A DNA stretch of 64,000 nt, from contig NZ_FQUV01000002.1 of NCBI RefSeq assembly GCF_900129235.1, positions 248,001 through 312,000 on the forward strand. The letters are read 5' to 3'. Position 1 is the stretch's first letter. The number at the start of each line of letters is the position of its first letter. Below are positions 11,834 to 53,404 of the stretch, piece after piece. Under the pieces are notes generated by a model. That model was not told the origin of the DNA. It saw only the letters and a list, made by a program, of their open reading frames with translations, and made no database searches. Source of the DNA: Litoreibacter ascidiaceicola. Lineage in GTDB: Bacteria; Pseudomonadota; Alphaproteobacteria; Rhodobacterales; Rhodobacteraceae. A program made the translations under genes and the position numbers.

Positions 11834-11834
11834 G

Positions 11835-16227: not shown

Positions 16228-16228
16228 G

Positions 16229-17326
16229 TCAGCCGTCCTCCGTGTGCAACAACAAGCCCAGCGACAGGAAGATTCCTGCAAGCGGCGGGGCCCACGCGGC
16301 AACCAGTACCGGAATTTGCCCGTTCTGGCCAAGCACCTGAGCAAAGTTTCGCAAAAAGAAAATGCCAAACCCCATGAGGACCGCGAACAACACCATAAGA
16401 CCAGTGCGCCCGAAGCGGGTATGACGCATCGTAAAGCCAGCCCCGATCAGCACCATCGCAGCCAACAATACAGGGTTCGCAAGCTCCATATTCAGCCAGA
16501 CCCGATGTTGCAGGGCAGAGAACCCCGCTCGGTCCAGTTGCCGGATGAACCTTGGCAGGTCCCAGATCGGAATCGACTCCGGACTTCCGAAGCTGTCTCG
16601 AATTTGATCACGGGTTAGATCGGATTTCACATTGATCTGCGGGTGAAGCACAGCGCCGGTTTCGGGGTTCTCCAGATCGGAAAAAGTCCACCGTTTTGCC
16701 TTGGATAGAACCCAGCTCCCTGGCTCCAGCAGCGCCTCGGCAGCTTCGATGCGATAACTGACCGACCCGTCGCCGTTGAAGCCATAAAAGGTGACCCCGA
16801 AAAACCGTGTCCCATCCAGATTGGAGCGCTCTGCGCGGATGACCACCTGACCTCCGGCGCTGGCCTGACGCAGCCACAGACCTTCTTCGGAGACGGAGCT
16901 AACCGACCCGCCCGTGTTGGCGTAGCGGCTAGAGACAACTTCGAATTGTTTGGACGTGGCCGCAACAATTGGGTTCAGCACAGCGACACCAAGTGCGCCA
17001 AAAACCAGAGATGTCAGAACAGGGGCCGCCAGCGAACGCAGCGCAGAACGCCCCGACGCACGGGTCACAACCAGCTCCGATGTTCGCGCGAGCCCGAGGA
17101 AAAGTGTGATGGTTGCAAGCACAACCAACAGCGGAAGCATGCGGTACATGGCAGCGGGGGCGTTGAGCAATGCAAGCTGACCTGCTTCCATGACGCCAAC
17201 CTGATCACTGTCGAAGCGGCGCATTTGCTCGACTAGATCAATCAACAAAACGATACCGAAAAACACCCCGAACACCAGTGTGAACGACCACGCGAAGCGG
17301 CGGGCAAAATAGATATCAAGCCTCAT
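16229..17326 (-). CDS. lptG: LPS export permease LptG
   Basis: Inner-membrane permease of the LptB2FG exporter. 365 residues of the YjgP/YjgQ family: TM segments near the N-terminus (LDIYFARRFAWSFTLVFGVF and later ALLNAPAAMYRMLPLLVVLAT), a periplasmic jellyroll region, and TM segments near the C-terminus (VLLAAMVLIGAGFTMR). Its start overlaps the lptF stop by 4 bp, which couples the two permease subunits. Confidence 0.93.
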   Translation of the reverse strand: MRLDIYFARRFAWSFTLVFGVFFGIVLLIDLVEQMRRFDSDQVGVMEAGQLALLNAPAAMYRMLPLLVVLATITLFLGLARTSELVVTRASGRSALRSLAAPVLTSLVFGALGVAVLNPIVAATSKQFEVVSSRYANTGGSVSSVSEEGLWLRQASAGGQVVIRAERSNLDGTRFFGVTFYGFNGDGSVSYRIEAAEALLEPGSWVLSKAKRWTFSDLENPETGAVLHPQINVKSDLTRDQIRDSFGSPESIPIWDLPRFIRQLDRAGFSALQHRVWLNMELANPVLLAAMVLIGAGFTMRHTRFGRTGLMVLFAVLMGFGIFFLRNFAQVLGQNGQIPVLVAAWAPPLAGIFLSLGLLLHTEDG

Positions 17327-18450
17327 GCCGGTATCCCTTTCGGGGTGCGCCCACGCATGCGTTTCATTGATGTCGAGTAAAGCAAAAGTGCCGAGATCAA
17401 TGCCCCCACGGCCGGAGCAGCATAGGCCAGCCAGAACAATGCCGCGTCCTTGCGGGCCGCTTCTTCGGCCACGTTGGAAACCATTTGCACCAAAATAATC
17501 AGCACAACCGCGATGACGACTTGCCGCCAGACCCCGAAGCGCGAGAAGCCCCCCAGCATCAAAGTGGCAAAGCCCATGAGCGGAACCACAATTGCCAGAA
17601 GTGATTTGGCAAAGCGATCATGCGCTTCGAACAAAAAGTCGGGCAAGTCGCCATGGGCCGAGGCCAGATCCGCCTCGGACGGGTTGAGCAACACCGGTGT
17701 GGACAATTCTCTGAGGTCGCGATTTCGCGCGCCGCTTGGGCCAATCAAGGCCCCGATATTGTATGCGAAGTCTTCGAAGGCGACGGTGGACAATCGGCCA
17801 GTGTCTTTATGAAAGGTTTGGGCCAGCCCGTTGCGCATTACCAGCCTTGGACCGGACACCGCGCGCACCAGAAATGCGCGTTCCGCCGTGTAGGTAACCA
17901 CCGCCGTCGGATCACGGCTGTCTTCCAAGAACAGCTCGTCAAGTTCGCCCAGTTCCGTAATGTTGCGGATATATACGGCGATATCGGAGGTCGGATGCAG
18001 GAACTGGCCTTCTTTCAGGAACTGCGCTGTGATGTCTTTGGATATTTCCTGACTGCGTCCTGCAAGCTCGGTGCGCGCCGCGGGAACAAGAACATGCGCG
18101 AGCACCGCGACCAGAACGGCAACCAACACGCCGAAATAAATTACAGGCCGTCCGATCCGCAACGACGAAGCGCCCGCCGTTTGCAAAACCACCATTTCCG
18201 AATCCGAGCTGAGGCGATTTGTGACATATACGGCGGCCACGAATGCCGAAATCGGCAGTACAATCAGGATGACATATGGCAAGGTGAGCAAGGTGAACTC
18301 CAGAAACACCAATGCGGTCTGGCCATCGCTGATCAGTTGGTCAAACAAGCCAATTGCGCGGTTCACCCAATATACGGATACCAAAACAAGAGAGAAGAAG
18401 CCGAACAGGATCAACAATTGCGACAGCATGTATCTGTCGAATCGTGCCAA
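17323..18450 (-). CDS. lptF: LPS export permease LptF
   Basis: Partner of LptG. 375 residues, YjgP/YjgQ family. The start is read as TTG 18450 (ARFDRYMLSQLLILFGFFSL): GGGAGG sits 7 bp upstream on the minus strand, and the RFDRYML segment before the first ATG (18429) belongs to the family N-terminus as I know it from relatives. TM segments flank a periplasmic domain, and the tail ends ALLLYSTSMKRMRGRTPKG. First gene of the six-gene envelope operon lptFG-lptD-surA-pdxA-rsmA; divergent from pepA. Confidence 0.92.
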   Translation of the reverse strand: MARFDRYMLSQLLILFGFFSLVLVSVYWVNRAIGLFDQLISDGQTALVFLEFTLLTLPYVILIVLPISAFVAAVYVTNRLSSDSEMVVLQTAGASSLRIGRPVIYFGVLVAVLVAVLAHVLVPAARTELAGRSQEISKDITAQFLKEGQFLHPTSDIAVYIRNITELGELDELFLEDSRDPTAVVTYTAERAFLVRAVSGPRLVMRNGLAQTFHKDTGRLSTVAFEDFAYNIGALIGPSGARNRDLRELSTPVLLNPSEADLASAHGDLPDFLFEAHDRFAKSLLAIVVPLMGFATLMLGGFSRFGVWRQVVIAVVLIILVQMVSNVAEEAARKDAALFWLAYAAPAVGALISALLLYSTSMKRMRGRTPKGIPA

Positions 18451-26171: not shown

Positions 26172-29100
26172 ATGAAGATCTGGGCCTCCCGCTTTTTTGC
26201 GGCACCAATTCTAGTCTTGGTATCGGTCATTTGGATAGGGCTCGGATTGGCCGCGACATCCGCACAGGCCACGACCTTCACATCTACTGTTCCCGGAACT
26301 TCGATCACCTTGCCCGACGATTACCCTGAGGCTGGCGGCGTCGCGATCGTCATGATTGGCCTGAACGGTAACATCTATTACCAGTTCTCTGATCCCGCCA
26401 ACGCGTTTGTCGGCTTCAACAACCGCCCCAATCGTCCGGAGCTGGGCGGCAATCCCTTCACCGTGAATGATCCGATCCCGCTTGATTGCGGCTTTTCAGA
26501 CTGTCGGGACTATTTCGGGGGTGGGCTTTCACGGGTCCATATCCGGTTCTCGGCCTATGATGGCGACACCCAGCCCGGCGGCTTCGACGAGAATGATATC
26601 ACTTTGCGTTTGAACGGATTCAACGTGGGGAGTTGGTCCGGCCTGACGACCGAACGGACCAATGATAGCGGTACGCGGTCCTTCGGGTTTAGAACCGGTT
26701 TCGGGAACAACACGTTTAATACGGGTTGGTTCACGTCCTCCAACTCCGGATTAATGGAGTCGCTTCTGAACACGGGGCCGACAGGTCAGACAACCATTCA
26801 GGTTTTCGACGACGACCCGAACGACAACTACTGGGATTTCCAGCGCGGACCCAGCTTACAGAACCCGAACATCCAAACAGTTGCTCCAGGCATGACGATC
26901 GAGAAGTCTGCCAGCCCGACCACCTATGACGATGTCGGGGACGAAATTACTTACACCTTTGTTTTGAAAAACATCGGCTCCGTTCCGATCAGGAATGTAG
27001 GCGTTATTGATGACAGGATCAGCGCGCAGGGTGGAAGCGTCACCTGCGACGATCAGGACATTTTGGACAGCCCGTCCGGTGCTGCCCAACCGTTTCAAAC
27101 GATTTGTCGTGCAACGTATACAGTTACGCAGGCTGACATCGAGGCCGAGCAGGTCACCAACGTTGCAACAACACAAGGCACCCCCGATTTTGGTGTATTG
27201 GGAGCTGTTACGGATACCGAGACTGTCACCGGCCCACCTGCAATACCCTCGATTTCCCTCGAAAAAACAACAATAAGTGCGGCGTTCGGAGCGGCGAATA
27301 CAACCGTTCCCTATGAATTTAGCGTCGAGAATACCGGCAACGTCACGCTGACGGACATCACGGTCACGGACCCGAATATCCCCGGTCTGTCATGCACCTT
27401 TGCCACAATGTTGCCGGACGCTGTCGAAACTTGCGCGGGAACATACACGGTATTGCAAGCCGACGTGGACAATTTTGCCGCGGGCACGCTGCTTCGAAAC
27501 GATGCCGAGGTCACCGCAGACGCGGCGACAGGTGGGGTCGTACAGGATACGGACTTTGTGGAATTAACCGGCCCAGCGGCAGCGCCCGCATTGACCATCG
27601 TAAAGCGTGCCTTGACCGGGACGTATGATAGCGTCGGTGATGTCGTCCAATACGCGTTTGATGTAACGAATACTGGGAACATCACCTTTCCTGCGCCGCC
27701 ATCTGTGACCGACAGCTTGGGGATTCCGGTGACGTGTCCCGCTGGCGCCATGGCGCCAGGACGGCAGATCACCTGCACGGCGGAAATTTCCGTGACGCAG
27801 CCTCATATTGATGACGGTCAGATCGACAATACCGCCACCGCAGAAATCTCGATTGCAGGCGTTAACCTGTCTGAGAGTGACAGCGCTTTGGTGACAGCCA
27901 CGCGCTCGACCGGACTGACATTGACCAAGCGTTTGGCGTCCACCAGCCCGACAAGCTTCGCGGCAGACGCGATCACGCTCAGCTACGAATATGTTCTGCG
28001 GAATACGGGAAATGTGACGCTTGAGGCCGTCGGCGTTGTTGATGACAAAACGACTGTGAGTTGCCCCGCATCCGTGATCGCTCCGATGTCCCAGATCGTG
28101 TGCACCGCAGTTTACAACACCTTGCAGGAGGATGTGAACGATGGTGGCGTGACAAACAAAGCGACAGCATCCGCCACCCCGCGCGGCGAGACCGTCGCTG
28201 TCGAAAGCGTGGAGCAAGAGCTGACGGTGCCAGCCGTCCAGACACCATCTTTGGCACTGGCAAAAAGCGCCGGTGCGCCAGCCCCCAGCTTTAGCCTTGG
28301 CGCGACGATCACCTACACATTCGATGTGACGAACGACGGCAATGTCGACAATCCGGGTCCGATCACCATCACAGATAGCAAACTTGGCGCGCCATTCGAG
28401 TGCTTCGCTGGGCCTTTGCTTGCAGGGACTGCGCAAAGCTGTACGCGCGATTACACACTGACCACGGCTGATTTGCTGTCCGGCTTGGTCGTAAACTCTG
28501 CGACCGCAAGTGGCGGTGGTGTAACATCGCCCAGCGATGGCGCAACCGTTTCCAACAGCGACACGCCCGAAGTGACGCTGACCAAGACGGCATCGCCTTC
28601 GCCCATTCCCGCTGGCGTGACCTCCGTTACATATACGTTCAACGTCCAAAACACAGGTACGGCGCAATTGCTGTTGGCGACCAACCCGATCACGGTCAAT
28701 GACCCGAAGGTCGGAGCGATCGATTGCTCGGCGCAACCTGCAACGCTCGATGCGCCGACACTCCTTACGGCAGGGGAGTCGTTCGACTGCACGGCGAGCT
28801 ACACCTTAACGCAGGCGGAGATTGACGCGGGCGAGGTCGTGAACACGGCGTCGGCGTCCTTCCCGTTCAACGACGGCTCCGGCGTGCAGACGATTACATC
28901 GGACACCGCAACAGCGACGACACCGATTGCGGAGAACTTGCAGTTCACCTTCGCCAAGACCGGACCTGCGAGCTTCATCAATGTGAGTGAGGTGTTGAGC
29001 TACAGCTTTGACATCGAGAATACCGGCAATGTCACGATGACGTCCTTTTTGCTGACCGATGACCTGATTAGCAACGCAAGCTGCCCGGTGAGCAGCTTGG

Positions 29101-32100
29101 CACCGTCTGCGTCCACCACCTGTACCGGCAGCTATACAGTCACCCAAACGGACGTTGACGCGGGAACTGTACTTAACAGTGCCAGCGTGACGGGCCTTTC
29201 CGCTTCGGGCAGCCAAGACACGCAAACCGATAGCTCTACCGCGACGCGCGCGGCTCAACCCACCGACCGCGTATTGAGCGTCGACAAAACTGCCAACCGC
29301 TTGGACTTCACGGCGGTCGGGCAACAGCTGATCTATGCAATCGAGGTGACCAATGACGGGTTGCAAACCCTGACGAACCTGACTGTCACGGACGTTCTTG
29401 ATCCGGCATATAGCTGTAACATTCCGACCCTCGCCCCGGGCGCGTCCAGCAGCAGCTGCACTTTCTCGCATGTCGTGACGCAAGACGACATCGACGCTGG
29501 TCAAGTGGTCAACCTTGCGACCGCGTCGGGTTCTGGTGCCGCGTCTCAAACATCTGGTTTGACCATTCCGGGACCCACCCGAAACGCGAGTTTCACCGCC
29601 GTGAAAGACGCGCTGTCCGGCTATACTGTTGACGGTGATTCAATCACCTATCGCTTTACCGTGACCAACACTGGCAACGTGCGCATCAACGGTGTTCAGG
29701 TTTCCGACCGTGGTCAAGTGTGCACGACGATCGGAACGCTAGAGCCGGGTGAGGTCGACAATTCGTGCCAGTTTACCTTCCTTGTTACTCAGGCCGATGT
29801 GGATGCGGGCAGTGTTGTAAACACCGCGACTGTCACGGGTACAGGTGCGGACGGGACACCGCTAACCGTGACCCCACAGGAAACCGTCACAGGTCCGCTT
29901 GAAGCGCCTGCATTGACGGTCACAAAAGTCGAAGATGACACCAGCGGTGATTTCGGTTTACCGCTCACCTCCGAGAGCTACACCATTTCGGTGATCAATA
30001 GCGGCAATGTCACCCTGAACAATATCTCTGTCACCGATGCGCTGATCGGGCTGGATTGTATCGTGCCGACCTTGGCTCCTTCCGCCACTGCGACCAGTTG
30101 TGACCCCGTCGGTGGTGGGGCATCCGTTCCGATGACGGGCAGCTACACGATTACCCAAGCGGATGTTGATCGCGGATCGTTGAGCAACACCGCAAGCGCA
30201 TCCGGTACAACGATCAATGGTACGACCGCTACGGATAGTGCAACAGTCGAGCTGGACAGTCCGGTACAAACCCGCTCGTTGGGTGTTGTGAAAACAAGCG
30301 ACCTGACCGGTAACTTCGACACGCTTGGCCAGATGATAACCTACAGCTACGATGTGACCAACACCGGCAATACGACCCTGCCGAATGCAATCACCGTCGC
30401 GGATAACAAAATCACTTCGGTTACTTGTGATGCCCTTCCCGCAGGCGGGCTGCCACCGATGGGGGTTGTCACGTGCACGGGAACCTACGCCATCACGCAA
30501 CCTGATATTGATGCAGGCTTCGTGACCAACACTGCGAGCGCGACTACAACGACAACGGCGGGCTCGGTCACGTCGCCGGACGTTGTGCTTACACTGAACG
30601 CTGACCAAAATTTCGCCATGACCTTGGACAAGCGCTTGAAAAGCACGTCAGCCGTCAGCTTTTCGGCAGCGGCCGCACCGATTACCTATGAATATGTCGT
30701 GACCAACAGCGGGAACACGACGATCACGGACGACATAAAAATCAACGACGACCGCTTTGGCACGGATTTGGTTTGTACGACTGCCGATTTGGCCCCAACA
30801 GCGCAAATCATCTGCGAACAGCCATACAGTACAACCCAAGGTGACGTGAATGACGGCGAGGTGACCAACACCGCCACCGCCTATACGGGGCCTAACCTTG
30901 GAGCCGCAACACTCAGCTCCAACAGCGACAGCGTGACTGTACCAGCGTTGCAAAATCCGCTTTTGGTTGTTGAAAAGAACTTTGTCTCGGCCTCGGGGCT
31001 GCCGGTTTCAAATCCGGGTTTCTTCGAGGGGCAAGAGCTCACTTATGACTTCGTCGTCACAAATAGCGGGAATGTCTCGATCACCGTTGATCCTGCGACG
31101 GTCATCAGTGACCCGAAGATCGGCCCGTTCACCTGCACCGGAATACCAACGGTACTGGAGCCATCTGACACCTATACCTGCACAGGTCCGGCGTCGCCTT
31201 ACACCGTCACGGCAAACGACATCATTCTTGGGTCCGCTGTCAATGTGGCGACCGCAACGGGTACACTGCCTGACGCCAGTCAAATTCTGTCTGCGCCGAA
31301 CAGTGCAATCTATCCATTGAACGTAGCGCCCGCGGTGTCCGTGCTCAAACGCACCGAACCGGCAACGGGTGTGACCTTTGCGGCGGTAAATGACGAGATT
31401 GATTACGTCTACGAGGTGACCAATACGGGCAATACCGGCTTGCCATCCCCAGGGACCGTGACGGATGACAAATTTCCGGGTGAAACCATCACCTGCGTTG
31501 ACCCGTCGGGAGGCACGTTCGCACGCATAATCGACGAGCCGACGGAAATCGCAATCTGTACCAGAACCTACATCGTGACGCAGGAAGACCTTGATCGGGG
31601 AAGTGTAACTAACGTCGCCTCTGCGACGACGAGCTTTGCGGGTGATCCGGTGCAGTCCCAACCTGCCACACTTACCGTCAATGGCGATGTTGAGGCTCTG
31701 GTTGCGCTGACCAAAGAGGTGTCACCGACCACGCCAGCGTCCGCAGGCGATATATTGACCTACACGCTGACCGCGACGGCCTCGGGCAACCAAACCATTT
31801 TGGGCGCTACGATTTCCGATCCGTTGCTTTCATCTCTCAGCTGCCTGCAATCTGGTGCGAGTGTTACCAGTGCAGACCTTGACCCGAACGGCGACCCGCT
31901 GATTTGTACGGGGTCGCTGACCGTAACGCAGGCAATGGTCGATGATCAGGAAGTCCGCAACACCGCAAATGTGCGCGGCGCCGCCCCTGACGGGTCGATC
32001 GTCTCAGCTGATACCGAAAATGTACTGGGAGTCGATGCTCCGAATGACGAGCTTACTATCACGAAACGGATCAGCCCTGCGCCGATCAGCGGAACCGACC

Positions 32101-35100
32101 CAGCCTATACCCAACCGGGTCAAGTGGTCACATTCATCGTTGAGGTTGAAAACACGGGCAACATCACGGTCGACAACATCAATGTCACCGACGACCTGAT
32201 CGCAGGGACCTGTAATGTCGGCACGCTGGCGCCTGGGGATAGTAACAGCAGTTGTGTGTTCACCCTTACAGTGATGCAAGACGAGGTCGATGCCGGTTCG
32301 TTCACCAACGAGGCGACGGCATCGGGCACACCACGTGCTGGAACCGGTCCGACAGTCGGGATCGACGATGTATTGGTTCTCGGACCGCCCGCGGAACCTG
32401 CCATTGCGTTTAACAAAGAAGCCAATGTGACCGACTTCTCGGCGGCAGGTGACGTGATCACCTATACGTTTACGGTCGCCAACGCGGGCAACGTGACGCT
32501 GTTCGCGCAGCCTTTTGTGACTGATACGACGATTCAGCCTGCCCCCTTCGCCTGTGGCACAATTCCGGCAGGTGGCCTTGCGCCGCAGGAGTTTGTTTCG
32601 TGCACGCGGGATTATCCCGTCACGCAAGCCGACGTGGACGCGGGAACGATTACGAACAACGCGAGTGCCACCAGCACCGAAGCCCCGACGCCTGAAGTCG
32701 CTAGCGCAACAACCACTGGCACGCGCACGCCGGGTGTGAGCCTGACAAAAACACCGTCGATTACAGCAGACGCACAAATCGGTAACGTAATCGAGTACAC
32801 CTATCGTGTGAGCAACACAGGCAACGTGACCCTTGATGCGGTGACGATGGCGGATACGCATTCCAGCGCCACGACCACAGCGCCCCTGAGCATCGCTGGC
32901 GATGTGCAAGTCGTTGATGCGGGTATTGCCAACGACTCGACCGATGCGGAAGCTAACGGTATATGGGATAGCCTCGCACCTGGTGATGCGGTTGAATTCA
33001 GTGCCGAATATACGGTCAAGCAAGCCGATATCGACGCGAGGCAGGTGTTGTCCAATACCGCAAGCGTCAGCACGTCCAGCCCTGCCGGGACAACCCCGCC
33101 AAGTGACAGCGTAACGGTCAATGTGCCGGTCGAAGTGTCAAACCCGGGTATTGACGTTGAAAAGACAGTGACAGGAAGCACCGGCAGTGCCGCTGATGAC
33201 GTCGTGAGTTTCGAGATCGTTGTTCGCAACACTGGTAATGTAACGCTCGCAACACCGGTTCTCGACGACGATCTGACCCGAAACGGGGGCGCTGTTCTCG
33301 CTTTGACCACGGGTCCCACCCTTGCGTCCGGGAATGCCGCACCCTTGGCTACTCTCGATGTGGGCGAAGTCTGGACCTATCAGGCGAGCTACACCCTGAC
33401 CCAAGCCGATGTGGATGCCGGAGGGATCGACAACACGGTGCTTGTAACTACCACGTCACCGGACGGAACGCCCGTTTCAGACCGATCTGGCAACGGCTTG
33501 CCCGGGGGCGAAGACAGCCCAACGCCGTTCGACATCGACGTTGATCCACAAATCTCGTCGTTGAAAACCATAACCTCAAGCACGGTCGCCGTGGATGAGG
33601 TGGTGACGTTCCAGATCACCGTTACAAACGACGGCAATGTCACCCTGAGTAGTGTGAGTGTTGACGATACGCTGACGCGTACGGATGGAACTGTTCTGGC
33701 GCTCGACGCGCCGGTGGCTTTCGCGGGCGCTGACAATGGGTCGCCTCAGGGAACGCTTCTGCCGGGCGAGGTCGCGACCTACACCGCGCAATACACCTTG
33801 ACCCAAGCTGACATCGACGCGGGTGGTATTTCGAACACCGCGGAGGTCAGCGGCACGCCCCTAAGCGGTGTTCCCGTTACGGATACATCCGATGACGGAG
33901 ACACTGGAGCGGGGGATACCGGCGACGATCCGACGGTTCTGGACATTCCCGAAGATCGCGCGATTGAGCTGGTTAAACAACTGGTGGATGGCGAACCTGC
34001 GAATTTCACCGAAGATGGCGCCATCCTGCGATATGAATTCGTGGTGACCAACGCGTCCAACGTAACGCTGACCGACGCGATTACGATCAACGACCCCCTG
34101 ATCACCGATGCAGGGGGTACGATCACCTGTCCTGCGCCACCAGTTGCTCCGGGTGAAAGCATCAGTTGTTTCGGGGACTATGAGGTTCTGCAATCTGACG
34201 TGGATGCCGGAGGTGTCGACAACGCAGCCACCGCAACCAGTGGTGCCACAACTAGCCCCGAGGCGACGTTGACAGTGCCATCTGTGCAGAACCCGGCGAT
34301 GGAGCTTTTGAAAGAAGCCGAGGAAGTTCTGGCAACGGACTTCTTCACCGGTGCCGAAATTACCTACACCTACACGGTGACCAATACGGGCAACGTGACA
34401 ATCTTCGATCCGATCACGGTCGAGGATAACCTGATTGATACGGTGGTTTGCCCAACACCTTTCCCAACGGAAGGGATCGCTCCGGACGGAACCTATGTCT
34501 GTACGGGCACCTACTTTGTAACGGCCATCGATGCGGATCTTGGACAGGTCACCAACACTGCGAATGCGACCGATGGCACCACACCCAGCCCGACCGTCAC
34601 GGAAACCATCCCTGATACCGCGACCCCCTTGCTGGAGATCACCAAGACTGCCGAAGCAGGTGCGACTTTTGCGGAGGTGGGTGACGAGATCACCTACACA
34701 TTCGAAGTTCTCAATGCGGGGACGCGAACCTTTGCCTCCGTTGTGACGGTCTATGACAACCGTCTAGGCGAAATCATCTGCTTCGATCCCGCTGCAGATC
34801 CGACAAACGACCCCGATTTCCGCGCGGGTGAGGTGCTGACTTGCATGGGCACCGACCAAGTGACGCAAGAGGATTTGGACGCGGGTGAAGTGACCAACGA
34901 GGCCTATGCACAAACGCTGTTCGGGGCGGCTGACACTCCGGTCAGCTCAACACCGGTAGACGTGACCGTTGCGGCGGATTTAGCACCGGATCTGACGTTC
35001 TCCAAAGTGTCGAGCCCGAACCCTGCAGGCGCTGTTGGCACAGATATTACCTATACGTTTACGGCGACCAACACAGGGAACCAGACCCTCAACACGGTAA

Positions 35101-38100
35101 GCGTCAGCGATCCCGCCTTTCCGACGCTGGTCTGCTCCGCGCCGGAATTGCTGCGCGGGGACAGCCTGACTTGCACCGCGACATATGAAATCACGCAAGA
35201 CAACATTGATGCAGGCGAAGTGCTGAACACGGCGACGGCCACGGCACAGACACCGCAAGGTGGCGAACTGGAAGAGACCAGCGCAGAGACGACGATAATG
35301 CCGGCTGCCAATCCGCTTATGTCAGTGGTTAAGCGCCCGAGCGTGTCGCCCTTTGGCCCTGTAGGCAGCTCTGTCACCTACACATTTGACGTGAACAATG
35401 ACGGCAACGTGACGCTGTTCAATGTCGCGGTCGATGACAGCCTGGACAGCGGTCCTGCGTGCGAGATCGCGCGGCTGAATGTCGGGGCTACGGATAGCAG
35501 TTGTTCGTTCACGCTTGAGGTTGATCAGGCGCTGGTCGATGCGGGCAGCGTAACCAACACTGTTGACGTCACCGCTACGGATCAACTGGGCAACCCAGCA
35601 GATGCCACGGCGACAATTACCACGACTGGCCCGATGCAAGCGCCGTCACTTGAGGCCACAAAGGTGGTCAGCTTTAGCGGTGTCGCTGTCGGCGATGTGG
35701 CCAGCTATACCTTGCAGGTCGAGAACACCGGGAACGTCACCCTTGATAATGTGAACGTGACCGACTTGATGACGCGAAACCTGAATGGGCGCAGGGTTAC
35801 GCTAGACAGCCCGTTTGCACTGGTCGCGTCAAGCGATGCGGATGGTGATGGCCGGTTAGATGTGGATGAAACTTGGGTCTACACCGCGACCTTCACGCTG
35901 ACCCAAGCGGATTTGAATGCTCAGGGCGTATCGAACACGGTGGTCGTTGATGCCGAAGGGCCGGGTGCCACGCCGGTGACCGACACATCGGACAACGGCA
36001 ACGATGGTGATGGCAACATGTTGGATGATCCGACCGTGGTTTCGATCACGTCGGACCCGCGCCTTGTGGTAACCAAAGACGTCGTATCGGCAGGCTCCAT
36101 TGCAGGCGAGCAAGTGGTCTTCCGCATCACTGCGGCCAACACCGGCAATGTCGATATTGATGGGGTCACGATCGACGACCAACTGACGCGAAACGGTGGC
36201 GGCGCGCTGGCGTTGACCACGGGGCCAACTCCGGTGGGCGATGCCAGCTTTATCGGAGCAGGCGAGCAGGTCACCTGGGATGCAACCTACACGCTGCTGC
36301 AAGAGGACATTGATGCGGGTGGCGTCGCCAACTCCGCGACCGTTTCAGGCACCGGCCCTGATGGTAGCGCAGTGAGCGACCTGTCAGCTGACGGAGACCC
36401 CTTCGATGGCAATGTCGAGGATGATCCAACCGTTGTGATCATTCCGGCGGCGCCAACCTTGGACGTGCTAAAACGTGTGGTTTCGGCGGATGAGCCGTTT
36501 GACGGTGGCCGCGTCGAGTTCGCGGTCGAAGTCGCCAATACCGGCAACGTGACCCTGAGCAGCGTTGCCTTGATCGAGAACTTGCGTCGGCTGGACGGCG
36601 CAGCGCTGACACCGACCAGCGTAAGCTTTGACAGTGCCACCGAAGGTTCGGGCGAAGGGACGCTGATCCCGGGTGAGACAGCGACCTACACCGTGAGTTA
36701 CATCCTGACGCAAGACGATGTCGATGCGGGCGGGGTGAGCAACTCGGTTACTGCGACAGCGACAACACCGCTCGGTGGCCCGCTCTCTGATGTGTCCCGC
36801 GATGACGACCCATCGGATGGCAATGATGAGGACGACCCGACGATCGCGACGATCGAAGCCGCTCCGGCGAATACTTTCGTCAAAACGGCGTCGCAACCCG
36901 TGCCGCTCTTCCCGATGATCTATCAGGTGACGTTCACTCTGACGGTCGAGAATACCGGCAATGTGACCCAAGAGGGCTACCAGATCGCGGATGACCTGAG
37001 CGCCTTTGAGGGCTCGGCGGAAGTGTTGCGCGATGCGCCGTTCGGACTGTCGGTTCGCACCAGCGGCTTTACCAACGCGGCGGTCAATCCGTCCTTTGAT
37101 GGGGCAGGCGACACCGCGACGTTGAGCGGGGATCCGACCCTTGCACCGGGCGAAACCGGAACGGTTGAAATTGATGTGGTCTACAGCACCGAAGGGGCGG
37201 GCGTGCCAGCGGACAACGTGGCAAATCTGACCTCCGGTCTTTTGCCAAGCCCGCAAAATGCGACCGCCAGTGTGGCCGTGACGGACAGTGACGGGGACGG
37301 GGTGCCAGACTCCCTAGAATCAGCGACAGCGGACCGTGACGGAGACGGCATTCCTGACGCAAACGATTACGATCCGACGGGCTATTTCTATTGCGAGGAT
37401 GACGGACGCATTCTTGCGGGTGGCTCAATCTCGGTTACGGGGCCATTCGGCACACAAACCGGTGTCGGAACCAGCAACTTCATCACCATCGTGCGGGATG
37501 GCAGTGCAGGGGAGTTCCAGTTCTTTGTCACCCGCGCTGGCACCTACACGATCAATCCGACCTATCCTGCGTCCGGAGCTGTGTCGACAAGCCGTTTGGC
37601 AAACCCGACGCTCGACGCGACCAGCTTGCTTCCGGCCAATCCGGCCTCTATCGGGTCCTCGGAGTTTGGCACCACGGACCGTCTTGCGGACTTCTCCGCA
37701 GGGGCGAACCCGTTCTACCTGACCTTGACCTTCGAGGCGGGCGATCCGTTCATCCTGAACAACAATATCCCGCTGGAAAACTGCGCGGGAACGCCGGACT
37801 TGCAGGCAACCAAAGTTGCCGACCGCAATTCGGCTGTGTTCGGCGAGGCGGTGAACTTTACGCTGACCTTCACCAACAATACGCCGACGACAGTGACCAA
37901 CGCGACATTGGTCGACCTGTTGCCAGCCGGTATGCTCTACACCCCCAACACCGCGCGCGTGGATGGGGCCGCGGTCGAGCCCACCGTGACAGGCTTGCGG
38001 CTAGAATGGCCGGGGCAGACCGTGACGCCGGGACAAACCATCAACCTGACCCTTTCTGCGCGGGTGGTGGCGAACGGCTCTTTCGGTGATCTGACCAACA

Positions 38101-38756
38101 GAGGGTTCCTTGCCAACGCCGCTGGTGCGCCGATTTCAAACGTCGCCACGGCTGTCGTGCGGGTCGAGCCGGAGCATGTGTTTGATTGCTCCGACATCAT
38201 TGGCAAGGTCTTTGATGACAAGAACCAGAACGGCTATCAGGATCAGGGCGAGCCGGGCTTGCCCGGCGTGCGGCTGGCGACTGTGCGCGGGTTGCTGATT
38301 ACCACTGACGAGCATGGCCGGTATCACGTGCCTTGTGCGGAGCTTCCAAAAGATATCGGCTCCAACTTCACGCTGAAACTCGACACGCGGACATTACCCA
38401 CGGGCTACCGCGTGACCACGGAGAACCCGCGTGTGATCCGCGTTACGGCTGGTAAATTCGCCAAGCTGAACTTCGGCGCGTCACTGTCCAATGTGGTCGA
38501 TATCGACCTGACCGCTGCGGCCTTCCTTGGAAACTCGTCCGAGCCGTCAGCGGCGTTGGAACGTGGTGTCGACGGGTTGATCGGGCAGATCAAATCGACC
38601 CCATCGGTACTGCGGCTCAGCTACATTCTGAAAGGCGAAGACCGGAAACTGGCAAATGCCCGTTTGAAGGCGGTTGAAAGCTTAGTCCGGGAGCGCTGGA
38701 AAGGCTCCGGCAGATACAAGCTCAACATCGAACGCAGCATCAAGCGTGTGCAGTAG
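26172..38756 (+). CDS. Giant secreted DUF11-repeat protein (about 4194 residues)
   Basis: Starts at ATG 26172 with a Sec signal peptide (MKIWASRFFAAPILVLVSVI, cleavage probably after SAQA). Residues 35-240 form a unique N-terminal domain with CGFSDC. From about 241 to 3561 there are 28 clear DUF11-like Ig repeats of about 118 residues each, followed by a degenerate 29th. At about 3703 two Asp-rich TSP3/calcium-type units occur (DSDGDGVPD, DRDGDGIPD). A domain starting YFYCEDDGRILAGG follows, then another DUF11 domain (about 3876-4000), an SdrD-B/Cna-B-like domain (IIGKVFDDKNQNGYQDQGEP, about 4006) and a basic tail with YILKGEDRKLANARL. The layout suggests an extracellular fibre held at the cell surface. 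It is followed after 12 bp by an outer-membrane barrel gene. Function is unknown; adhesion or surface-layer roles are inferred. Confidence 0.9.
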   Translation: MKIWASRFFAAPILVLVSVIWIGLGLAATSAQATTFTSTVPGTSITLPDDYPEAGGVAIVMIGLNGNIYYQFSDPANAFVGFNNRPNRPELGGNPFTVNDPIPLDCGFSDCRDYFGGGLSRVHIRFSAYDGDTQPGGFDENDITLRLNGFNVGSWSGLTTERTNDSGTRSFGFRTGFGNNTFNTGWFTSSNSGLMESLLNTGPTGQTTIQVFDDDPNDNYWDFQRGPSLQNPNIQTVAPGMTIEKSASPTTYDDVGDEITYTFVLKNIGSVPIRNVGVIDDRISAQGGSVTCDDQDILDSPSGAAQPFQTICRATYTVTQADIEAEQVTNVATTQGTPDFGVLGAVTDTETVTGPPAIPSISLEKTTISAAFGAANTTVPYEFSVENTGNVTLTDITVTDPNIPGLSCTFATMLPDAVETCAGTYTVLQADVDNFAAGTLLRNDAEVTADAATGGVVQDTDFVELTGPAAAPALTIVKRALTGTYDSVGDVVQYAFDVTNTGNITFPAPPSVTDSLGIPVTCPAGAMAPGRQITCTAEISVTQPHIDDGQIDNTATAEISIAGVNLSESDSALVTATRSTGLTLTKRLASTSPTSFAADAITLSYEYVLRNTGNVTLEAVGVVDDKTTVSCPASVIAPMSQIVCTAVYNTLQEDVNDGGVTNKATASATPRGETVAVESVEQELTVPAVQTPSLALAKSAGAPAPSFSLGATITYTFDVTNDGNVDNPGPITITDSKLGAPFECFAGPLLAGTAQSCTRDYTLTTADLLSGLVVNSATASGGGVTSPSDGATVSNSDTPEVTLTKTASPSPIPAGVTSVTYTFNVQNTGTAQLLLATNPITVNDPKVGAIDCSAQPATLDAPTLLTAGESFDCTASYTLTQAEIDAGEVVNTASASFPFNDGSGVQTITSDTATATTPIAENLQFTFAKTGPASFINVSEVLSYSFDIENTGNVTMTSFLLTDDLISNASCPVSSLAPSASTTCTGSYTVTQTDVDAGTVLNSASVTGLSASGSQDTQTDSSTATRAAQPTDRVLSVDKTANRLDFTAVGQQLIYAIEVTNDGLQTLTNLTVTDVLDPAYSCNIPTLAPGASSSSCTFSHVVTQDDIDAGQVVNLATASGSGAASQTSGLTIPGPTRNASFTAVKDALSGYTVDGDSITYRFTVTNTGNVRINGVQVSDRGQVCTTIGTLEPGEVDNSCQFTFLVTQADVDAGSVVNTATVTGTGADGTPLTVTPQETVTGPLEAPALTVTKVEDDTSGDFGLPLTSESYTISVINSGNVTLNNISVTDALIGLDCIVPTLAPSATATSCDPVGGGASVPMTGSYTITQADVDRGSLSNTASASGTTINGTTATDSATVELDSPVQTRSLGVVKTSDLTGNFDTLGQMITYSYDVTNTGNTTLPNAITVADNKITSVTCDALPAGGLPPMGVVTCTGTYAITQPDIDAGFVTNTASATTTTTAGSVTSPDVVLTLNADQNFAMTLDKRLKSTSAVSFSAAAAPITYEYVVTNSGNTTITDDIKINDDRFGTDLVCTTADLAPTAQIICEQPYSTTQGDVNDGEVTNTATAYTGPNLGAATLSSNSDSVTVPALQNPLLVVEKNFVSASGLPVSNPGFFEGQELTYDFVVTNSGNVSITVDPATVISDPKIGPFTCTGIPTVLEPSDTYTCTGPASPYTVTANDIILGSAVNVATATGTLPDASQILSAPNSAIYPLNVAPAVSVLKRTEPATGVTFAAVNDEIDYVYEVTNTGNTGLPSPGTVTDDKFPGETITCVDPSGGTFARIIDEPTEIAICTRTYIVTQEDLDRGSVTNVASATTSFAGDPVQSQPATLTVNGDVEALVALTKEVSPTTPASAGDILTYTLTATASGNQTILGATISDPLLSSLSCLQSGASVTSADLDPNGDPLICTGSLTVTQAMVDDQEVRNTANVRGAAPDGSIVSADTENVLGVDAPNDELTITKRISPAPISGTDPAYTQPGQVVTFIVEVENTGNITVDNINVTDDLIAGTCNVGTLAPGDSNSSCVFTLTVMQDEVDAGSFTNEATASGTPRAGTGPTVGIDDVLVLGPPAEPAIAFNKEANVTDFSAAGDVITYTFTVANAGNVTLFAQPFVTDTTIQPAPFACGTIPAGGLAPQEFVSCTRDYPVTQADVDAGTITNNASATSTEAPTPEVASATTTGTRTPGVSLTKTPSITADAQIGNVIEYTYRVSNTGNVTLDAVTMADTHSSATTTAPLSIAGDVQVVDAGIANDSTDAEANGIWDSLAPGDAVEFSAEYTVKQADIDARQVLSNTASVSTSSPAGTTPPSDSVTVNVPVEVSNPGIDVEKTVTGSTGSAADDVVSFEIVVRNTGNVTLATPVLDDDLTRNGGAVLALTTGPTLASGNAAPLATLDVGEVWTYQASYTLTQADVDAGGIDNTVLVTTTSPDGTPVSDRSGNGLPGGEDSPTPFDIDVDPQISSLKTITSSTVAVDEVVTFQITVTNDGNVTLSSVSVDDTLTRTDGTVLALDAPVAFAGADNGSPQGTLLPGEVATYTAQYTLTQADIDAGGISNTAEVSGTPLSGVPVTDTSDDGDTGAGDTGDDPTVLDIPEDRAIELVKQLVDGEPANFTEDGAILRYEFVVTNASNVTLTDAITINDPLITDAGGTITCPAPPVAPGESISCFGDYEVLQSDVDAGGVDNAATATSGATTSPEATLTVPSVQNPAMELLKEAEEVLATDFFTGAEITYTYTVTNTGNVTIFDPITVEDNLIDTVVCPTPFPTEGIAPDGTYVCTGTYFVTAIDADLGQVTNTANATDGTTPSPTVTETIPDTATPLLEITKTAEAGATFAEVGDEITYTFEVLNAGTRTFASVVTVYDNRLGEIICFDPAADPTNDPDFRAGEVLTCMGTDQVTQEDLDAGEVTNEAYAQTLFGAADTPVSSTPVDVTVAADLAPDLTFSKVSSPNPAGAVGTDITYTFTATNTGNQTLNTVSVSDPAFPTLVCSAPELLRGDSLTCTATYEITQDNIDAGEVLNTATATAQTPQGGELEETSAETTIMPAANPLMSVVKRPSVSPFGPVGSSVTYTFDVNNDGNVTLFNVAVDDSLDSGPACEIARLNVGATDSSCSFTLEVDQALVDAGSVTNTVDVTATDQLGNPADATATITTTGPMQAPSLEATKVVSFSGVAVGDVASYTLQVENTGNVTLDNVNVTDLMTRNLNGRRVTLDSPFALVASSDADGDGRLDVDETWVYTATFTLTQADLNAQGVSNTVVVDAEGPGATPVTDTSDNGNDGDGNMLDDPTVVSITSDPRLVVTKDVVSAGSIAGEQVVFRITAANTGNVDIDGVTIDDQLTRNGGGALALTTGPTPVGDASFIGAGEQVTWDATYTLLQEDIDAGGVANSATVSGTGPDGSAVSDLSADGDPFDGNVEDDPTVVIIPAAPTLDVLKRVVSADEPFDGGRVEFAVEVANTGNVTLSSVALIENLRRLDGAALTPTSVSFDSATEGSGEGTLIPGETATYTVSYILTQDDVDAGGVSNSVTATATTPLGGPLSDVSRDDDPSDGNDEDDPTIATIEAAPANTFVKTASQPVPLFPMIYQVTFTLTVENTGNVTQEGYQIADDLSAFEGSAEVLRDAPFGLSVRTSGFTNAAVNPSFDGAGDTATLSGDPTLAPGETGTVEIDVVYSTEGAGVPADNVANLTSGLLPSPQNATASVAVTDSDGDGVPDSLESATADRDGDGIPDANDYDPTGYFYCEDDGRILAGGSISVTGPFGTQTGVGTSNFITIVRDGSAGEFQFFVTRAGTYTINPTYPASGAVSTSRLANPTLDATSLLPANPASIGSSEFGTTDRLADFSAGANPFYLTLTFEAGDPFILNNNIPLENCAGTPDLQATKVADRNSAVFGEAVNFTLTFTNNTPTTVTNATLVDLLPAGMLYTPNTARVDGAAVEPTVTGLRLEWPGQTVTPGQTINLTLSARVVANGSFGDLTNRGFLANAAGAPISNVATAVVRVEPEHVFDCSDIIGKVFDDKNQNGYQDQGEPGLPGVRLATVRGLLITTDEHGRYHVPCAELPKDIGSNFTLKLDTRTLPTGYRVTTENPRVIRVTAGKFAKLNFGASLSNVVDIDLTAAAFLGNSSEPSAALERGVDGLIGQIKSTPSVLRLSYILKGEDRKLANARLKAVESLVRERWKGSGRYKLNIERSIKRVQ
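26891..36857 (+). repeat. Array of 28 DUF11-like protein repeats (about 356 bp each)
   Basis: Each unit reads: first strand ending in Lys (TKTASP-like), a YTFxVTNTGNVT strand, a T-x-D motif, a variable loop, then YTVTQADVDAG and V-x-NTA. Counting the TQADVDAG-type motif gives 28 copies. Repeats 1-17 and 21-25 carry two Cys; repeats 18-20 (from 32724) and 26-28 (from 35637) do not. Repeats 19, 20 and 26-28 have an LTRxxG type core, and acidic linkers such as DDGDTGAGDTGDDPT follow them. The repeats are divergent at DNA level, so this is an old expansion rather than a recent tandem duplication. Confidence 0.85.
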
Positions 38757-38768
38757 GGGAGCGGGATT

Positions 38769-41700
38769 ATGAAAATGAACAATACCTTACGCGCCGTTTT
38801 GATTGCCTCTACTTCCATGGTGTGGGGCGGGGCGGTAACTGCTCAAGAAGCGGATTTTGAAACCTCTTGCGCATTGGTCAACGGCGTTCTTCCTGCCAAT
38901 TGTACGCAAGACAACGCGTCCGAAGTCGTTGTTGTCCCTGCGGGAGAGAACAACGAGCTGGATCGCGGCAACGCCGCAGTGGGCGGTGATGGCTTCCTGA
39001 TCTCCATCGACGGCCAACCTGTCATCGGTGACACGCGGGTGGAAGACGAAATCCGAAAGACAGACATCGCGCTGTCGAATGCCGATGTGCAGGTGAAGTT
39101 CGACGGATTGGGTGCGGTGCCGCGTCTTGACCTTGTTGCCGTCGATCAAACCGAAGCTTTCGAAGCCGGTGACGTTGTCACATTCCGCTCGCGGACCAAC
39201 TACCCTGCCTACCTGTCGCGCGGCGAGGTGCGCATGGTGGACATTGGCAACGCAGCGGGGCCGAAAACATTGGTCGTGGTGCCGGTGCAACCAAACGGCT
39301 CCGTCTCTGTGGCGATCCCCGAAGGCCGCGACGTTGTTGCCATTCATCGGGTGTATGACGCACGCGGGCGCTACAACGAAACTGAACCTCTTTCCCTACA
39401 AGGAAGTGACGACCGCGGATTGTTTACGCAAGCTGAGGAAGGCACCGACGCCACCCGTGTGCGTGGTATCCCGGTCTCCGGTGGAGCGATTACCGTCTAC
39501 GGGAAAGGCGTGCGCGCAGGTGCAAATGTGCGAACCTTGGGAGAGACTGTTCAGCCGGATGCGGATGGCAGCTTCGTCGTGCAACGCATCCTGCCTGCGG
39601 GCGAACGCGATGTTGAGGTGCGGATCAGCGGGGCGGGTGAGGATATTTACCTGCAACGCTCGGTCGAAATTCCACGCTCTGAATGGTTCGGCGTGGCGAC
39701 GGTTGATCTGACTTTCGGCTACCGTGAGGACGCGGGCAAGAACACTGCGGGCGGTGCCGTCGACAAGTATTACGACCGCGGACGTTTGGCCTTCTACGTG
39801 AAAGGCAAAACGCAGAAGGGCTGGAACATCACCGCCAGTGCCGACACGGGTGAAGACGAGTTGAGCGAGATATTCCGCAACCTCGACAAGAAAGACCCGC
39901 GCCACCTTCTGCTACGGCTCGACAGTGACAAGGCCTATCCGGTTTATGGCGATGACAGCACGATCGTCGAGGACGCGCCGACCTCTGGCAAGTTCTACTT
40001 CAAGGCCGAGCGGGAGGGTAATTTCGCCCTTTGGGGGAACTACAAAGGTCAGGTCAACGGATCGCATTTCCTGCGCAACGAACGCACGCTGTACGGCTTC
40101 CAAGGACATGTGCAGACACAAACGACGACGTCCAAAGGCGAGCCTCGGGCAGAGTTGGATTTGTATGCCGCGCAGCCAGATACGTTGCCGGGTCGGGATG
40201 TGTTCCGTGGCACTGGCGGCTCGGTTTATTTCCTGCAACGCCAAGACCTGTCCATCGGCTCTGAAACCATCGCCATCGAAATCCGCGACCCTGACACGGG
40301 CCGCGTGACCAGTCGCGAGGTTCTGGTCTACGGGCGCGACTATGACATCAACTACTTGCAAGGTGTCATCACGCTGACGCGGCCTTTAACGGGGGCTACG
40401 GGCGGTGGCACGGTGATCACTGACCCGTTGGGCGAGAACACCGTTCAATTGACGGTAAACTACGAGTTCACCCCGACCGCAGGAACCATCGATGGCTACG
40501 CCTATGGTGGGCGGGCGCAATTCTGGGCAACCGATAATCTGCGGTTCGGCGCGACGGGCCTGGTCGAGCAGACAGACATCGCCGACCAAACGGCCTACGG
40601 CGCGGACATGCGCTACGAGATTTCCGACACCACATTCCTGGAGCTTGAATATGCCCGCACAGAGGGGCCTGGGTTCGGGTCCAGCTACTCGTCTGATGGT
40701 GGGCTGATCGTGACCAACACAAATGCAGTTGGTGGTACGGGCGAGGCCTATATGGCCCGTGGGCAGGTCGATCTGAAAGACCTCAATCCGGACCTGAACG
40801 GCCAGCTTGGTGCTTATTACGAAAAGCGTCGGGCAGGCTTCTCGACGCTGGATTACCAAACCACCGTTGATGAGGAACTTTGGGGCGTTTACGGCGAGTA
40901 CGCCCCAACCGAGCGGCTGTCTTACCGTCTTTACTATGATGATTTCACCGATGACGCGGGCAAGGTCGCTCGCGAGGGCGGGCTGGAAGTGACCTATAAG
41001 GTCAGCGAACGCCTGACCTACGATTTCGGCATCGAGCATATCGACAAGGTGACACCTGCGGGTGCGGCCGACGAGACGGGCAACCGCACCGACGTTGCTG
41101 TGCGCGCGACGGTCACGGTGAACCCGCAGTTGGAATACTCCGTGTTCGGTCAAGCGACGGTTTCTCGCTCTGGCGGGCTGGCCCGCAATCACCGTGTTGG
41201 TGCAGGTGTGAAGTACCAGTTCGCACAGAATTGGACCTTCGAGGGCGAAATCTCCGACGGGTCGCGCGGGGTAGGGGCCTTGGCGCTGCTGTCGTATGAC
41301 AATGGCGAGGATGGCACTGCCTATTTCGGATACACCCTTGATCCCGGCCGCAGCTATAACGGCGTGGACCTGAGCGGAAAGGACCGAGGTCAGTTCGTGG
41401 TTGGTGGTACCCGCCGCATGAGCCAAGCGGTCGATGTCTATGCCGAGAATACATATGATCTGTTCGGGCAGCACCGGTCGCTAACCTCGACTTACGGGAT
41501 CAACTACGCACGGTCCGAATTCCTGCGCTACTCGGCCTCTGTGGAGGTTGGCCGCGTGGACGATAGAGCGAACGGTGACTTTGATCGCACCGCGCTGTCC
41601 TTTGGCGTGCGGTACGAAAACCAGACGGGTGTAACAGGCACCGCGCGCTTGGAATACCGACGTGACCGCGGGGTGTACAACAACACCAGCCGTGACGGTG

Positions 41701-42326
41701 ACACGATCGCTCTGGTCTCGACGCTGCGCTACAAAATCGATGAAGAGCAACGGTTGCTGTTCAGTTTTGATGGCAGCTACACCGACACTGACGGCTCCTC
41801 GATTCCTGACGGGCGCTATGCGGAGCTGACTTTGGGTTATGCCTATCGCCCCATTGAAAACGACCGGCTGAACGTGCTGCTCAAATACACCTATCTGCAT
41901 GACCTTTACGGGCAGGAAGTGGACGGCACCAATGACCCCGGCCCGCGCCAAAAAAGCCATGTGCTGTCTTTGGATGCGTCCTACGACCTGAACCGTAATT
42001 GGACCTTGGGCGGCAAGCTGGGTGGCCGCTGGTCGCAAAGCTCTCCGGATGCAACGACGGCGTTTCAGGACAATGATGCGTGGCTGGCCGTGGCCAATGC
42101 GCGGTATCACCTGACCCATAAATGGGACGTTTTGGTCGAAGGGCGCGCTTTGCGGGCAGAGCAGGCGGGCGTCACGGAATACGGCGTTTTAGGTGCCGCG
42201 TATCGCCATATCGGGAACAACTACAAGGTAGGTGTCGGGTATAATTTCGGGAAGTTCTCGGATGATCTGACGGATCTGACCTATGACGACAAGGGCATGT
42301 TCATAAACCTGATCGCGAAGTTCTAA
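38769..42326 (+). CDS. Outer-membrane beta-barrel partner of the giant repeat protein
   Basis: 1185 residues. Signal peptide (MKMNNTLRAVLIASTSMVWG, cleavage near VTAQ), then about 300 residues of soluble beta domains (FEAGDVVTFRSRTNYPAYLS; VRGIPVSGGAITVYGKGV) before a long barrel of alternating aromatic and polar strands. It ends in GMFINLIAKF, the terminal-Phe signal used by the BAM complex. A conserved segment PVYGDDSTIVEDAPTSGKFY and VNGSHFLRNERTLYGFQGHV resembles long proteins usually annotated as OmpA-family or TonB-receptor-like next to DUF11 proteins. No plug domain or TonB box was recognised. GGGGAG overlaps the upstream stop, so it is probably translationally coupled to the giant gene. 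Anchor or exporter of that protein is an inference. Confidence 0.85.
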   Translation: MKMNNTLRAVLIASTSMVWGGAVTAQEADFETSCALVNGVLPANCTQDNASEVVVVPAGENNELDRGNAAVGGDGFLISIDGQPVIGDTRVEDEIRKTDIALSNADVQVKFDGLGAVPRLDLVAVDQTEAFEAGDVVTFRSRTNYPAYLSRGEVRMVDIGNAAGPKTLVVVPVQPNGSVSVAIPEGRDVVAIHRVYDARGRYNETEPLSLQGSDDRGLFTQAEEGTDATRVRGIPVSGGAITVYGKGVRAGANVRTLGETVQPDADGSFVVQRILPAGERDVEVRISGAGEDIYLQRSVEIPRSEWFGVATVDLTFGYREDAGKNTAGGAVDKYYDRGRLAFYVKGKTQKGWNITASADTGEDELSEIFRNLDKKDPRHLLLRLDSDKAYPVYGDDSTIVEDAPTSGKFYFKAEREGNFALWGNYKGQVNGSHFLRNERTLYGFQGHVQTQTTTSKGEPRAELDLYAAQPDTLPGRDVFRGTGGSVYFLQRQDLSIGSETIAIEIRDPDTGRVTSREVLVYGRDYDINYLQGVITLTRPLTGATGGGTVITDPLGENTVQLTVNYEFTPTAGTIDGYAYGGRAQFWATDNLRFGATGLVEQTDIADQTAYGADMRYEISDTTFLELEYARTEGPGFGSSYSSDGGLIVTNTNAVGGTGEAYMARGQVDLKDLNPDLNGQLGAYYEKRRAGFSTLDYQTTVDEELWGVYGEYAPTERLSYRLYYDDFTDDAGKVAREGGLEVTYKVSERLTYDFGIEHIDKVTPAGAADETGNRTDVAVRATVTVNPQLEYSVFGQATVSRSGGLARNHRVGAGVKYQFAQNWTFEGEISDGSRGVGALALLSYDNGEDGTAYFGYTLDPGRSYNGVDLSGKDRGQFVVGGTRRMSQAVDVYAENTYDLFGQHRSLTSTYGINYARSEFLRYSASVEVGRVDDRANGDFDRTALSFGVRYENQTGVTGTARLEYRRDRGVYNNTSRDGDTIALVSTLRYKIDEEQRLLFSFDGSYTDTDGSSIPDGRYAELTLGYAYRPIENDRLNVLLKYTYLHDLYGQEVDGTNDPGPRQKSHVLSLDASYDLNRNWTLGGKLGGRWSQSSPDATTAFQDNDAWLAVANARYHLTHKWDVLVEGRALRAEQAGVTEYGVLGAAYRHIGNNYKVGVGYNFGKFSDDLTDLTYDDKGMFINLIAKF

Positions 42327-52132: not shown

Positions 52133-52289
52133 AGGTTTAGAACTCCTCAACACGCGCGTAGGCGTCGTGGTCTTGCGTTAATAAAGTGATGCGCCGCTGC
52201 GGTGTTTCGGGCGCGACGTTTTGCGACATAGCAAAAGCTTGCACCGACTTGCCCTTGCAAATGTTCTCGCATTGTTCCAATTTGGTGTG

Positions 52290-53393: not shown

Positions 53394-53399
53394 GCTGAT
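53374..53399. terminator. Perfect 10-bp stem-loop between convergent genes
   Basis: ATCAGCTCAG (53374-53383) pairs perfectly with CTGAGCTGAT (53390-53399) over CTTGTT. The radical SAM stop codon (53391-53393) lies inside the right arm. No clear T-tract; the homocysteine methyltransferase gene ends 5 bp beyond. Confidence 0.55.
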
Positions 53400-53404
53400 A
53401 CCGT

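Follow-up and report, generated by a model that had tools for sequence, protein, structure and literature searches.

How a CLIPPER adhesin of a Gram-negative bacterium crosses the outer membrane and is then retained there is a question to which we found no answer in the literature, and it is raised by a pair of genes in Litoreibacter ascidiaceicola (Rhodobacteraceae). The pair lies in a 64,000-nucleotide stretch of contig NZ_FQUV01000002.1 (positions 248,001 to 312,000 of the forward strand), which we call the window and to which all coordinates below refer. The first gene encodes a giant repeat protein and the second a protein that is likely a large outer-membrane barrel; in related loci the two are nearly always adjacent or fused. 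Judging from the domain topology of relatives, the barrel is probably both the gate and the anchor of the fibre. The parts of the pair are as follows.

26172..38756, plus strand: giant fibre gene, 4194 amino acids (ATG at 26172, stop codon at 38754-38756), a CLIPPER/CLIPPER_2 fibrillar adhesin
26172..26270, plus strand: Sec-type signal peptide, residues 1-33, judged by eye
26271..26861, plus strand: conserved N-terminal head, residues 34-230, from identity among orthologues
26862..37181, plus strand: stalk of 29 CLIPPER_2/CLIPPER repeats, residues 231-3670, from our own hidden Markov model (HMM; domains above 40 bits)
37182..37781, plus strand: linker with DxDGDG-type motifs, residues 3671-3870, from the sequence
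37782..38156, plus strand: last DUF11 (CLIPPER) domain, residues 3871-3995
38157..38486, plus strand: SdrD_B-like junction domain, residues 3996-4105, the SdrD_B match being below threshold
38487..38753, plus strand: C-terminal beta-alpha-beta-alpha-beta domain (last 90 residues) in OmpA-like order, modelled at a predicted local distance difference test score (pLDDT) of 65-88
38755..38761, plus strand: Shine-Dalgarno sequence of the barrel gene, AGGGGAG, overlapping the giant's stop codon
38769..42326, plus strand: partner barrel gene, 1185 amino acids, with no named family above cut-off
38769..39728, plus strand: signal peptide and putative N-terminal soluble beta domains, about residues 1-320, from our own HMM (BNT) and modelled strands
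39729..42323, plus strand: predicted large beta-barrel, about residues 321-1185, from alignment A1 and a low-confidence model

The coordinates of the open reading frames (ORFs) confirm the arrangement claimed in the initial annotation, namely a secreted repeat protein of 4194 residues followed by a barrel protein of 1185 residues after a gap of 12 bp, with a Shine-Dalgarno sequence over the stop codon (TAGGGGAGCGGGATTATG). The giant's open frame contains an additional TTG upstream, at 26016; we preferred the ATG at 26172 because the signal peptide begins there. No terminator-like site was found on the plus strand between 38600 and 42500. Throughout the 3.74-Mb genome there are 10 DUF11 matches at an E value of 0.001, all of them inside the giant gene. 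A Pfam scan of 30 ORFs, a subset of those in the window, returned no protein-secretion or sortase family. The earlier statement that no type I secretion gene is nearby therefore stands for the neighbourhood but not for the genome, which has three type I secretion hlyD loci above cut-off, all on other contigs. A genome-wide search for ShlB was uninformative, its 14 controls being equally silent.

The giant belongs to a known kind of protein. In 2025 the names CLIPPER and CLIPPER_2 were given to DUF11 and DUF7507, which are described as isopeptide-forming domains of surface proteins (PMC12617251). Pfam finds DUF7507 in 29 stretches of the giant (1706 bits) and DUF11 in 17 (223 bits), the tandem DUF11/DUF7507 array that marks a CLIPPER/CLIPPER_2 fibrillar adhesin. 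Of the labels first given to this protein, DUF11 is thus present but DUF7507 predominates, and SdrD_B falls below cut-off. When the 29 window repeats above 40 bits are aligned, the Lys is found in all 29, and the Asp and the Asn in 28 each. The complete Lys-Asp-Asn isopeptide triad, a further mark of a CLIPPER fibrillar adhesin, occurs in 27 of the 29. Since the stalk (residues 231-3670) has only 40 Lys in 3440 residues, the triad is not an effect of composition. A Cys pair is found in 22 repeats, all of which are also triad complete. The triads suggest that isopeptide bonds form in the repeats, and we regard the giant as a fibrillar adhesin of the CLIPPER kind whose fibre is probably cross-linked. 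Ahead of the stalk, residues 37-230 share 64 to 79% identity across 11 orthologues, versus 38 to 56% for their repeats (in the two closest orthologues, head versus repeats, 94% versus 95 to 96% in L030 and 86% versus 76% in L031). No Pfam family matches this region, and the best Protein Data Bank (PDB) chain has an E value of 0.95. From these identities we read residues 34-230 as a conserved head without a known family.

At the other end of the giant, the junction domain (residues 3996-4105) is the most conserved part of the protein, with 53 to 84% identity in 15 giants that lack the window-type head and whose repeats align with repeats 16-29 at 16 to 45% only. The domain that follows it is OmpA-like in its order of secondary structure. 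In a model of the giant's tail (mean pLDDT, 49) this last domain reaches 65-88, and profile comparison with the OmpA domains of relatives gave a collinear, weak match (E value of 0.00085 for a single comparison; probability, 24%). The fold search with the tail model hardly assessed the OmpA-like end because its matches were filled by the immunoglobulin-like (Ig-like) domain. The GHTD (peptidoglycan) motif is absent from this C-terminal domain. In the linker, ahead of the last DUF11 domain, a DSDGDG...DRDGDGIPD motif at 37284-37358 is presumably of the calcium-binding type.

Is the partner a barrel? No model of Pfam or NCBIfam reaches cut-off for the 1185-residue protein, and PDB sequence searches with the barrel, the barrel profile and the giant's head gave nothing below an E value of 0.9. 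Its best named relative, in Litoreibacter halocynthiae, is 98% identical. The C-terminal residue is Phe in 16 of the 17 rows of alignment A1 and Tyr in the other. An AlphaFold2 model built from 7 sequences (mean pLDDT, 42) has 29 strands from residue 662 onward, together with strands between residues 122 and 296 in a block with pLDDT of 30-76; the latter lie in the N-terminal part, whose HMM (BNT) matches most relatives. The 50 listed structural matches of the model, classed by entry titles and background knowledge, are outer-membrane barrels of many kinds or complexes containing one. They are unspecific, with TonB-dependent receptors, ushers, LptD and MtrB among them. A motif in the barrel, DYxIxYxxGxIxL, is one that we take to resemble the type IX translocon SprA; SprA is not among the 50 listed matches, which excludes nothing. 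Hydrophobicity alternation exceeds that of shuffled sequences (z of 3.1 to 4.0) in all three parts of the protein and is for that reason not barrel specific, and a peak-counting strand predictor that did no better than shuffled columns was discarded. Judged from the model and the C-terminal Phe together, the protein is likely an outer-membrane barrel of large size that carries soluble beta domains at its N terminus.

We asked whether the two genes belong together outside the window. Loci around barrel hits were scored with profiles built from the barrel protein (BNT and BARREL) and from the last 330 residues of giants (TAIL), and pairing was counted over the 52 barrels, window included, that cover at least 600 model columns. 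Among these, 46 have a TAIL ORF immediately before them in the same orientation, one stands in swapped order (barrel L100, then TAIL ORF L141), three are fused (L110, L125, and L127) and two, from one genus, are orphans with no junction module within about 13 to 16 kb on either side (L118 and L119). Hence 50 of 52 barrels are adjacent or fused, and the possibility that the families are never neighbours elsewhere has no support. The one-chain form mentioned in the initial annotation also exists, in L110, L125, L122, and others; in L110 and L125 the junction lies directly before the barrel in one chain. The genome of orphan L118 additionally encodes the fused form L125, of 4548 amino acids. In 15 relatives measured with hand-chosen start codons, the stop-to-start gap is -4 to +14 bp. 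The genes flanking the pair vary between relatives in unannotated ORF listings, which suggests that the unit is the pair itself. The sample includes two near-identical species (L101 and L134) and two replicons of one strain (L136 and L139).

Seventeen shorter or more diverged barrels lie outside the count (L046, L047, L048, L121-L124, L126, L128, L129, L131-L133, L144, L145, L147, and L182). At a threshold of 45 bits, nine are fused (L048, L121, L122, L123, L126, L129, L131, L132, and L133) and three have an adjacent junction ORF (L046, L147, and L182); the junction of L128 scores below 45 bits, contig ends truncate L124, L047, and L145, and no junction was seen for L144. L184 is likewise fused. 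Some pair genes are split over two frames (the barrel in L046, L116, and L147; the giant in L186), reflecting assembly errors or decay. L. halocynthiae, L. albidus, and L. arenae also carry second, diverged pairs. In the second pairs L039, L040, and L041 the barrel is 55 to 59% identical to that of the window, and the L040 giant is far shorter, with an open frame of 1498 amino acids. The pair is also found on plasmids: 22 records match, including Rhodobacterales, Hyphomicrobiales, Burkholderiales, Vibrio, and one cyanobacterium, and the neighbourhoods of 11 of the 22 were inspected. In the cyanobacterial record, too, a TAIL ORF lies next to a barrel ORF. Plasmid records label the barrel "TonB-dependent receptor," "OmpA family protein" or "outer membrane protein transport protein."

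Presence and absence across genomes tell the same story. Among 61 relatives the barrel is present in 16 and TAIL in 15, and the two agree in 60; the sole disagreement, G019, is a 57% complete genome in which a piece of the barrel sits at the end of a contig. Both are missing from 8 of the 21 genomes of the genus. A draw of 289 genomes from the class gave 11 with the barrel. A wider draw of 398 Pseudomonadota genomes, with a threshold of 1e-6 for junction (TAIL) hits, gave the barrel in 56, TAIL in 42, both in 40, the barrel only in 16 and TAIL only in 2 (G562 and G595). Fisher's test yields 2e-39 by genome and 1e-22 by genus (24 shared genera of 34 and 25), values that overstate certainty because the genomes do not count as independent samples, with genus g301 strongly represented. 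With 40 of 42 junction-positive genomes carrying the barrel, the co-occurrence on which the original proposal depended is borne out.

The topology of the system can be approached through relatives that carry better-known domains. A Pfam scan of 18 relative proteins or parts found a true OmpA domain in seven, always at the junction and in differing genes: at the C-terminal end of the giant in Croceibacterium (L183), L112, L113, and L116 (four of seven giants or giant ends), at the N-terminal end of the barrel gene in Eleftheria (L137) and, in three copies, in L108 (two of seven unfused barrels), and between junction and barrel in the fused L122 (one of four fused). OmpA-type domains bind peptidoglycan in the periplasm, and the junction should therefore be periplasmic. 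At the opposite end, the giants L112 and L116 carry CshA_NR2 and GEVED domains at their N termini, and each of these giants is followed by a barrel gene. A CshA_NR2/GEVED head is also described for the adhesin of Acinetobacter silvestris that yielded the CLIPPER crystal structure (PMC12617251). With a head outside and an OmpA domain in the periplasm, the chain must cross the outer membrane. The giant itself has no membrane-barrel family among its Pfam matches, and the adjacent or fused barrel appears to be the simplest candidate channel for the chain.

In the mechanism that we propose, the giant would enter the periplasm via Sec. Its head and its stalk of isopeptide-locked Ig-like repeats would then pass outward through the partner barrel, head first, until the C-terminal junction (the SdrD_B-like and OmpA-like domains) halted and stayed periplasmic, docked to the barrel and to its N-terminal soluble region. 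The result would be a fibre of about 130 to 150 nm, given about 30 domains at 4 to 5 nm each, fixed by its C terminus and presenting its N-terminal head. The gene anatomy, the pairing and fusion, the domain order, the isopeptide triads and the conservation of head and junction are observed; surface location, export through the barrel, docking, adhesion and the isopeptide bonds themselves are what we propose in addition. That the pair is a two-gene surface-adhesin system, in which the giant passes head first through the barrel until its junction stops it, seems to us fairly probable. We advance only tentatively, as a possibility somewhat short of even, the broader joint claim that barrels of this family form the translocon of an outer-membrane secretion system yet to be described, one in which a very large, non-Omp85 barrel exports CLIPPER adhesins head first and is plugged by the junction, which exists as two genes, swapped genes or a fused chain, and which is spread over Alpha-, Beta-, and Gammaproteobacteria and one cyanobacterium.

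Several observations weigh against export through the barrel followed by arrest at the junction. The orphan barrels L118 and L119 mean that some barrels act alone; 16 of the 56 barrel-positive genomes in the wider draw have no junction hit, and 2 of the 42 junction-positive genomes have no barrel hit. No OmpA match was found in the Pfam scan for 11 of the 18 relative proteins or parts, and the window's own last domain is only OmpA-like, with the peptidoglycan motif missing, so that peptidoglycan anchoring is unsupported there. The Cys pairs of the stalk suggest folding in the periplasm, and a wide pore would therefore be needed; at a mean pLDDT of 42 the model of the barrel is too poor to give pore width or strand number. 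The hlyD genes elsewhere in the genome bear on the same point, since the barrel might instead be an anchor or lock only, with the giant exported otherwise, by type I secretion in trans or through another outer-membrane pore, and its junction then held. Beyond the three hlyD loci on other contigs, this reading can draw on the A. silvestris adhesin, which is described with an OmpA-like anchor in a text that contains neither "secretion" nor "barrel" (PMC12617251). However, the giant has a Sec-type N-terminal signal and no RTX family among its Pfam matches, no other neighbour was seen travelling with the pair in the unannotated ORF listings of relatives, and the fused forms carry the barrel alone, which leads us to consider export by another route rather unlikely.

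Could the giant instead stay inside the cell envelope? If it remained in the periplasm or on the inner side of the outer membrane, with the barrel as the membrane foot of a spacer or scaffold, the periplasmic placement of the junction by OmpA-type domains would be accounted for, and the export step of our proposal is so far one of inference. Yet about 30 Ig-like repeats far exceed the width of the periplasm, and two relatives have CshA adhesin heads. Most described isopeptide-locked domains, moreover, belong to surface adhesins and pilins (PMC12617251). We consider a periplasmic scaffold very improbable. Hardly better is the case for a barrel that transports substrates, for example a TonB-dependent one, with the giant only a cotranscribed neighbour or substrate catcher. 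The product names in plasmid records point that way, and TonB-dependent receptors are among the matches of the barrel model, but so are ushers, LptD and MtrB. Against transport stand the lack of any plug (PF07715) or TonB-receptor (PF00593) family in Pfam and NCBIfam scans at E values up to 1 and the fusion of stalk, junction and barrel in one chain in some relatives; such a role is accordingly quite improbable.

Elsewhere in the window, a minus-strand block at 10991-18450, about 8 kb from the pair, encodes two LptF/LptG-family permeases, lptD, a PPIC-type isomerase that is SurA-like by position, pdxA, and ksgA. This is probably an ordinary outer-membrane biogenesis cluster unrelated to the pair. 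Another minus-strand block, at 51428-56033, encodes a B12-binding protein and a homocysteine S-methyltransferase with two neighbours, 52137-53408 and 54945-56033, for which no Pfam family was found at 1e-5.

Paired or fused with such fibres almost throughout, and matched in 56 of 398 Pseudomonadota genomes, the barrel offers a testable candidate for the crossing and retention step. Proteins that records now call "TonB-dependent receptor," "OmpA family protein" or "hypothetical protein" would gain a more fitting name, and, if the barrel is indeed the translocon, it possibly represents a new secretion route. The pair is undescribed in the titles and abstract openings of the literature that we found (Creative Commons-licensed PubMed Central papers).

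Comparison with known systems places the pair close to several of them. The CLIPPER adhesin of A. silvestris, B9T28_05395, has in common with it a CLIPPER stalk, an N-terminal head and a C-terminal OmpA or OmpA-like domain, and the relatives L112 and L116 share CshA_NR2, GEVED, DUF11, and OmpA with that adhesin. However, no partner barrel is described for it, the words "barrel," "outer membrane" and "secretion" being absent from the main text of the paper (PMC12617251), whereas the window pair has a barrel gene, adjacent here and fused in some relatives, and an OmpA-like domain without the peptidoglycan motif. Two-partner secretion (TpsA/TpsB, type Vb) likewise combines a giant secreted adhesin and a dedicated outer-membrane barrel in neighbouring genes. 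Unlike in type Vb, the barrel has no POTRA, ShlB, or Omp85 family and the giant no TPS domain (Pfam, E values up to 1), and the window fibre appears to be fixed by its C terminus. The fused relatives, with passenger first and barrel last in one chain, recall classical autotransporters (type Va), but there is no PF03797 match, the genes are separate in the window, OmpA lies between junction and barrel in L122, and the barrel part has about 865 residues, compared with the 12-strand unit of a classical autotransporter. As in chaperone-usher pili, the barrel may pass folded, disulphide-bonded Ig-like domains; in contrast to those pili, the fibre is one continuous chain, no usher matches, and no chaperone is found among the 30 window ORFs scanned. 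The giant differs from type I RTX adhesins in having no RTX family, with hlyD loci above cut-off only on other contigs, and the barrel from TonB-dependent receptors in lacking PF07715 and PF00593 in Pfam at E values up to 1. The type XI secretion system (T11SS) was also considered and set aside; the Pfam matches of the barrel include no T11SS family, and in the passages considered from a T11SS study DUF11 occurs solely as a partner of DUF1194 (PMC12282271). By the families tested, then, the pair does not classify as type Vb, type Va, usher or RTX. The fibre itself is of the known CLIPPER kind, and what appears to be new here is the partner barrel, together with its pairing and its fusion.

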